A stretch of DNA of 35,147 nucleotides from Betaproteobacteria bacterium RIFCSPLOWO2_02_64_14 (GTDB taxonomy: Bacteria > Pseudomonadota > Gammaproteobacteria > Burkholderiales > SG8-41): assembly GCA_001770325.1 (NCBI GenBank), contig MEQT01000292.1, positions 1 to 35,147 on the forward strand, in the 5' to 3' direction. Positions 8,057 to 9,676 of this stretch are shown piece after piece; position 1 is the stretch's first letter, and every line of letters starts with the position of its first letter. The notes below the pieces were generated by a model. That model saw only the letters and a program-made list of their open reading frames with translations, did no database searches and had not been told where the DNA came from. The translations under genes were made by a program, and so were the position numbers.

Positions 8057-8515
8057 TCAAGCAACTGGCTCCAGATAGATCGTCGCTTCCAGCTTGACCA
8101 GCCTGCGGGCAAGCTCGATTCCCAGCCGGCGCCAGAGTTCGGGGCAGTGGGCTGCGATCTCCGTGAATTTCTGCCCGGATATCTGTGCCACCACGACGGT
8201 GTCAATTGCATCGACTGTCGCCGACCGCCCCTTGAACGGCTCCAACAGGGCGATTTCTCCCGTGTGCATTCCCGCGCCAACGGTTGAAACCTCGATTTCA
8301 CCCAAGCGCACGGAAACCTGCCCGGCGAGTATCAAGTACACGTCGGTACCCCGATCTCCTCGAGCGAAAAGACGCGCGCCGGGGGCGAATTCCCTGAGCT
8401 GCGCTGCCGAGGCGATCTTGTCGGCGACGTCCGTATTTCCGTCAACCAGGAACTGGCTGCGCAGCGCGTTCAGGAGCGCGGCACGTCCATCTCTACCCTG
8501 AAATCGTTCCAACAT
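8057..8515 (-). CDS. Cyclic nucleotide-binding domain protein without a DNA-binding domain
   Basis: 152 aa; cNMP-binding fold pattern (GARLFARGDRGTDVYLILAGQVSVRLGEIEVSTVGAGMHTGEIALLEPFKGRSATVDA); ends right after the C-helix; AGGAGG upstream of ATG. Confidence 0.88.
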   Translation of the reverse strand: MLERFQGRDGRAALLNALRSQFLVDGNTDVADKIASAAQLREFAPGARLFARGDRGTDVYLILAGQVSVRLGEIEVSTVGAGMHTGEIALLEPFKGRSATVDAIDTVVVAQISGQKFTEIAAHCPELWRRLGIELARRLVKLEATIYLEPVA

Positions 8516-8530
8516 GGCCTATGTCCTCCT

Positions 8531-8545
8531 GCGGGGCAATCCCGC
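8531..8545 (-). other. RBS-proximal stem-loop GCGGG-ATTGC-CCCGC
   Basis: 5-bp perfect stem just 5' of the AGGAGG of the CNB gene. Confidence 0.45.
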
Positions 8546-8571
8546 GACCGTGGTTCACCAGGGACACTCGA

Positions 8572-8596
8572 CCGAGAAAGCAACGCGCTTTCTCGG
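8572..8596 (-). other. Leader stem-loop CCGAGAAAGC-GCGTT-GCTTTCTCGG
   Basis: Perfect 10-bp inverted repeat in the CNB gene leader; no T-run. Confidence 0.7.
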
Positions 8597-8640
8597 AGGG
8601 GAGAAAGCCAGTTGGACTACGAGAGCGATCGTCGGGCGGC

Positions 8641-8683
8641 AAAAAAAGATTACCGGCAGCCCCACTACCCGCCCTCGGCAATC
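8641..8683 (-). terminator. Intrinsic terminator forming the riboswitch expression platform
   Basis: Minus strand GATTGCCG (8683-8676) pairs with CGGTAATC (8655-8648, one G-U), followed by TTTTTTT (8647-8641); the 5' arm overlaps the 3' end of the aptamer. Confidence 0.75.
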
Positions 8684-8762
8684 CCTCGGTCATGGAGCGC
8701 GGTGCTCTGTAGACCAGTGACTTTGCGTCCCCGCCTTTCGGTCGGGTTTGCCCTTTTCGAAG
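8672..8762 (-). promoter_or_regulatory. GEMM-I / c-di-GMP-I class riboswitch aptamer
   Basis: Minus strand: AAAAGGGCAAACCCGACCGAAAGGCGGGGACGCAAAGTCACTGGTCTACAGAGCACCGCGCTCCATGACCGAGGGATTGCCGA. Conserved GGGCAAACC, GAAA tetraloop on P1b, GGGACGCAAAG, GGUC/GACC stem with distal AGAGC/GCUC(C), terminal UUGCCGA. Confidence 0.9.
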
Positions 8763-8914
8763 TTGAGGAGAATCGCACGCAGGCGATTTCTCACTCGGCT
8801 TTCACGATATCCCCAACGGTGCCAATAATACTATGCCATTTATCACAAATCGATCATTTTCTAGAGGAAGTGCGAGCATGAGCGTTGCTCGCACCGCGCC
8901 TGTCCGCGGCTGGC

Positions 8915-8946
8915 AGGAAATTGTCGCCTCCGGGCGACAATTTCCT
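8915..8946 (-). terminator. Strong stem-loop at the 3' end of the SDR gene
   Basis: Perfect 14-bp inverted repeat AGGAAATTGTCGCC-TCCG-GGCGACAATTTCCT overlapping the SDR stop codon; no long T-run. Confidence 0.7.
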
Positions 8947-9676
8947 AGCGGTGCAAGTCGCGACTGATGAATTCGCCGTTGAGCGGAGCGGACATGTCGC
9001 TCGCAAGCAAGACTACGACGTTCGAGAAATCATCCGGCTGGTAGACGAAGCCCGCAGCGAGCAGGCGCTTGATCTCTTCTTCGGTCTTGCCGACGCGCCA
9101 CAACGGCGTGTCCGTCGCGCCGGGTCCGAAGCAGTTGATACGCACGCCGGTGTCCTTCAGTTCGAGCGAAACGGCGCGCGTGAAGCCGATGATCCCGGCC
9201 TTGGAGGCCGAATAGGCCGATCCCCTGGGCTGGCCCCGGATGCCCGTGCCGGAGGCCGTGCTCAACACGACGCCGCATTTGCGCGGAAGCATGCGCCGGA
9301 TCGCGGCGCGCGCGCCCAGGTACACGCTCTTGAGATTGAGCGTGATCACCGCGTCCCACGTTTCCTCCGTCATGTCCACGAGCGCCACGCGCGGAAACAT
9401 GCCGGCGATGTTGAGCAGAACGTCGAGCGGGCCGAACTCTGCCTCTGTGCGATCGAGCAACTGCTCGAATTGCGCCGCCTGGGTGACGTCCGCCTGGACC
9501 GCGACGGCCCGGCCACCGGCCTTGACGATCGCGTCCGCCGTCGCCTGCGCCGCGGCGAGGTTGATGTCGGAAACGGCAACGGCCGCGCCGGCTTGTGCCA
9601 TGGCGAGACCGTAACAGCGGCCCAGCCCGCCGCCGCCTCCGGTCATTGCAATCGACTTTCCTTCGAGCAGTTTCAT
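8945..9676 (-). CDS. SDR family NAD(P)-dependent oxidoreductase
   Basis: 243 aa; TGGGGGLGR nucleotide-binding motif, NIAGMFPR, YSASKAGIIGFTRA catalytic YxxxK. Confidence 0.93.
   Translation of the reverse strand: MKLLEGKSIAMTGGGGGLGRCYGLAMAQAGAAVAVSDINLAAAQATADAIVKAGGRAVAVQADVTQAAQFEQLLDRTEAEFGPLDVLLNIAGMFPRVALVDMTEETWDAVITLNLKSVYLGARAAIRRMLPRKCGVVLSTASGTGIRGQPRGSAYSASKAGIIGFTRAVSLELKDTGVRINCFGPGATDTPLWRVGKTEEEIKRLLAAGFVYQPDDFSNVVVLLASDMSAPLNGEFISRDLHR

Follow-up and report, generated by a model that had tools for sequence, protein, structure and literature searches.

A c-di-GMP-I riboswitch aptamer precedes the gene of a stand-alone cyclic-nucleotide-binding protein in one betaproteobacterial genus

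The stretch of DNA that we analysed, called the window below, is contig C292 (35,147 nt) of a draft genome that comprises 3.94 Mb in 304 contigs. Among named genomes, its nearest relatives are assemblies of Betaproteobacteria from metagenomes, including RIFCSPLOWO2_12_FULL_62_58 and 62_13, and all genomes that we compared are draft assemblies. On the minus strand of the window, a long leader with several predicted RNA elements precedes an open reading frame for 152 aa (Table 1), whose ATG follows an AGGAGG. Upstream of this unit and on the same strand there is an SDR gene (8945-9676) with a strong hairpin at its 3' side (-23.5 kcal/mol, z -4.6), and downstream of the ORF there is a convergent gene for a GntR/FCD regulator. 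Because of this hairpin on one side and the convergent gene on the other, the riboswitch unit is probably monocistronic. Upstream of the aptamer, at 8846-8830 of the minus strand, we see a block GTGA..AT.CATA that is similar in every copy of the leader reaching that far and may be related to a promoter.

Table 1. Features of the leader and of the gene behind it (window coordinates).
Feature	Position	Strand	Basis
Stand-alone cyclic-nucleotide-binding protein, 152 aa, PycTIR receptor-domain type	8057..8515	-	Pfam, PADLOC, PDB
Two mutually exclusive hairpins, GCUUUCUC/GAGAAAGC and CCGAGAAAGC/GCUUUCUCGG	8572..8608	-	sequence, fold
Longer competing platform hairpin	8614..8685	-	predicted in all seven copies folded
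U7 tract 3' of the 12-bp hairpin	8641..8647	-	sequence
Alternative 12-bp hairpin using the aptamer 3' strand (predicted terminator stem)	8644..8687	-	pair conservation, folds
c-di-GMP-I (GEMM-I) riboswitch aptamer	8674..8762	-	RF01051, 67.1 bits, E 3.1e-11
Hairpin immediately 5' of the aptamer	8765..8796	-	predicted folds, seven leader copies

An earlier note on this DNA, made from the sequence, had described a near-textbook GEMM-I aptamer at 8762-8672 of the minus strand, and the covariance model it had proposed as a check gives a significant match. The score lies far above the gathering score of 35 bits, and the match spans the whole model (1-87) with one non-standard base pair (cmscan); the start at 8762 holds, and the 3' end has to be moved to 8674, that is, 2 nt before the 8672 given there. 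This is the sole Rfam match in the whole window. The E-value establishes the aptamer, the regulatory action of which is predicted. The end of the aptamer is 158 nt away from the ATG, so that its position upstream of the 152-aa gene also agrees with the note. The hairpin that directly precedes the aptamer is kept in all copies of the leader despite differing sequence. As a whole aptamer with a G at the G20 place, the riboswitch itself is a standard member of its class; what sets it apart is its target, a stand-alone cyclic-nucleotide receptor domain, which is unusual and specific to the lineage.

The G at the G20 place, a position that we presumably locate correctly by the numbering of the Vc2 structure, is invariant in eight copies of the leader. 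G20A is the change that has been used for studying cGAMP binding in the GEMM-I class (PMC6274999). Together with the 21 GGDEF matches in the genome, from which it follows that the host very likely makes c-di-GMP, this residue makes c-di-GMP the expected ligand. That the riboswitch senses cGAMP instead seems highly improbable to us: cGAMP-preferring GEMM-I variants do exist, and GGC-type and A-containing variants are also present in the genus, but every leader copy carries the G at the place where the cGAMP studies introduced an A (PMC6274999). As a separate observation, four GEMM-I variants (L025, L026, L027 and L020) have AAGCC replacing GGGC, two of them being called c-di-GMP-I-GGC (RF03167), and the genes behind them encode, by eye, long and secreted-looking proteins.

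The aptamer 3' strand, GAGGGAUUGCCG, is able to pair over 12 bp with CGGUAAUCUUUU. Over eight distinct copies of the leader, 99.2% of the pair cells of this hairpin hold, compared with 41-59% when the partner is slid along, and what variation there is among these copies is one-sided only. In a shuffle test of the pairing alone, 332 of 2000 shuffles were as good, and the isolated hairpin did not fold better than its shuffles (z -0.9). As the shuffle comparisons were of no help, what speaks for the hairpin is its conservation.

In the window copy we find what is expected of a transcriptional ON switch, namely a predicted terminator that excludes the aptamer and that is then followed by a U-tract. 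When this copy is folded up to the U-tract, folding into the 12-bp hairpin is favoured over the aptamer fold by 3.7 kcal/mol, and in the other copies by 8 to 16 kcal/mol, the energy of ligand binding being excluded from both figures. The layout is that of the GEMM-I ON switch of Geobacter metallireducens pilM, in which the terminator takes the aptamer 3' strand including the ligand-pairing C, so that aptamer and terminator are mutually exclusive (PMC9262584). The pilM switch senses cGAMP (PMC9262584), whereas for the window copy, with its G at G20, c-di-GMP is expected. As a conserved hairpin can take the aptamer 3' strand and runs into U7 in the window, the riboswitch is most likely a transcriptional ON switch, a direction that we infer from this arrangement.

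The U7 tract is also found in one copy of G007 (L013). In the remaining copies there is no U-tract, and there the 12-bp hairpin is not a canonical terminator. Moreover, the longer platform hairpin, which likewise uses the aptamer 3' strand, is conserved in all copies folded. Both facts would fit a real aptamer whose control is exerted on translation, through Rho or by the long platform hairpin, possibly as an OFF rather than an ON switch. We regard this as unlikely, given that a hairpin competing with the aptamer is kept in every copy and that in the window copy the U7 follows it directly. In the part of the leader that links the predicted terminator to the ATG, the segments GCUUUCUC, GAGAAAGC and again GCUUUCUC follow one another and allow two exclusive hairpins.

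Pfam finds in the 152-aa protein PF00027 (cNMP_binding, E 1.8e-13) and neither an HTH nor any other domain, in accordance with the earlier note. The ORF is a real gene, since relatives at 58-68% identity share its start and differ little from it in length. Six relatives came from an alignment query; a scan of the genome contigs with the single protein gave none. The PADLOC model of PycTIR matches with an E-value of 5.4e-41 (model positions 1-140 of 288), and among solved structures the PycTIR chains 8jsk (E 2.3e-22) and 8jsj give the best sequence matches. A structure model of the protein is of moderate quality (pLDDT 72.7). By these comparisons the protein consists of a receptor domain and lacks an output domain, ending where in PycTIR the TIR domain would follow.

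The match to PycTIR (PDB 8jsk) is ungapped over residues 1-141. In PycTIR, cUMP is contacted by G86, E87, A89, R97, S98 and R138, and N143 is the specificity residue (PMC11224242). All six contact residues, and with them the ribose and phosphate contacts, are kept in the 152-aa protein, whereas R12 and E114 are not kept and N143 is replaced by E143, a position read by extending the ungapped alignment two residues beyond its end at residue 141. Five of the relatives have Q143. In the cGMP receptor XC_0249, the place of N143 is taken by E146 (PMC11224242), so that a glutamate at the base-specifying place is shared with XC_0249-type domains by the window protein only, its relatives having Q; unlike these, the window protein consists of this one domain, and no GGDEF or other output domain was found in it. 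It is thus unlikely that the protein is a cUMP receptor. Probably it binds another cyclic mononucleotide, perhaps cGMP or cAMP. There are nine class III cyclase matches in the genome, and the matches of the PycC model among its cyclases are all on other contigs; in the window this model matches the CNB protein itself only, and no pyrimidine cyclase gene adjoins the 152-aa gene, which is a further difference from PycTIR.

The best family match being the receptor domain of PycTIR, one could think of the protein as what is left of a Pycsar anti-phage effector, or as a decoy of one, instead of a signalling receptor. We find this quite improbable. The TIR domain of PycTIR type (PF10137) does not occur in five genomes of the genus; N143 is replaced by E or Q; and since the six relatives, from two or more genera, keep length and start, the gene is not decaying. 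Another locus of the collection, L076 (G247:C1:2640302-2640730), encodes a PycTIR-like protein that does have N at position 143 and an adjoining cyclase-like ORF, and is apparently a complete Pycsar system from another family of the order.

The leader, consisting of the aptamer and a platform of about 140 nt, is present nine times in total, spread over five genomes that belong to a single betaproteobacterial genus. Five of the genes behind it belong to this CNB family, two encode ankyrin-repeat proteins and one encodes a pilin; the remaining copy of the leader is cut off. The window genome has three RF01051 sites, two of which, in the window and on C256 (L003), precede paralogous stand-alone CNB genes. 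The pairing is also present in G005, G006 and G008, which gives five places in four genomes. That the pairing comes back in a second copy within this genome and in three other species speaks against a chance neighbourhood. The two-layer layout of aptamer and stand-alone CNB gene that the note had pointed out is confirmed; a response to the ligand and an actual relay of signals are predicted. A probe of 138 bases from the platform alone, run against 74 genomes of the family, hit nine places, always in this genus and always next to an aptamer; hence aptamer and platform have spread as one cassette.

The note had also called the pairing uncommon. A CNB gene of this family lies downstream in 5 of the 60 GEMM-I loci that we read in the family and order (with flanks of about 1.5 kb), all of them from this genus, and in the literature that was covered, in part and with few subscription journals, we found no precedent for GEMM-I with a cyclic-nucleotide-binding protein or a Pycsar system. 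Stand-alone CNB homologues that lack GEMM-I are found in G004 and G070, and G005 has one in addition to its riboswitch-linked copy; Rfam finds no aptamer at these three loci. The one in G004 (L036, C65) comes after a gene that by eye resembles a LOG-family nucleotide hydrolase.

Taken together, we consider it likely that a single gene, that of a free receptor domain for cyclic mononucleotides, is under the control of a c-di-GMP-I riboswitch which most likely works as an ON switch of transcription. In the absence of ligand, the aptamer 3' strand would pair with CGGUAAUCUUUU into a terminator hairpin with U7 at its end, so that transcription would stop. With c-di-GMP bound during transcription, the 3' strand would be held in the aptamer and the gene would be read, so that a rise in c-di-GMP would lead to read-through and to accumulation of the receptor domain. 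The domain would then respond to a cyclic mononucleotide, probably not cUMP, and, with this nucleotide bound, might act on a partner or buffer the nucleotide. In this way one messenger probably sets the amount of a receptor for a second one. More tentatively, and with some doubt on our side, the riboswitch could set the level of a free Pycsar-type receptor domain (perhaps for cGMP) that serves as a sponge or adaptor joining the two networks.

If true, this would link c-di-GMP in a concrete way, at the RNA level, to signalling by cyclic mononucleotides, and would be a case of a Pycsar-type receptor domain in use outside a Pycsar system. With the same leader also standing in front of ankyrin and pilin genes, a small c-di-GMP regulon takes shape, the members of which can be tested together.

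The leader precedes a gene for a 205-aa ankyrin-repeat protein in two genomes, at the third RF01051 site of the window genome (L001:755-1372, G000:C26) and in G007 (L030, C130). L030 and the copy L013 of the same genome (G007:C119) have the look of reciprocal chimeras between a CNB-type and an ankyrin-type leader and may be misassembled, because their contigs end inside the shared repeat. Apart from the ankyrin gene, G007 has one copy of the leader cut by a contig end and one (L024:910-1359, G007:C312) before a type IV pilin gene (Pfam Pilin), pilin genes being a classical target of GEMM-I.
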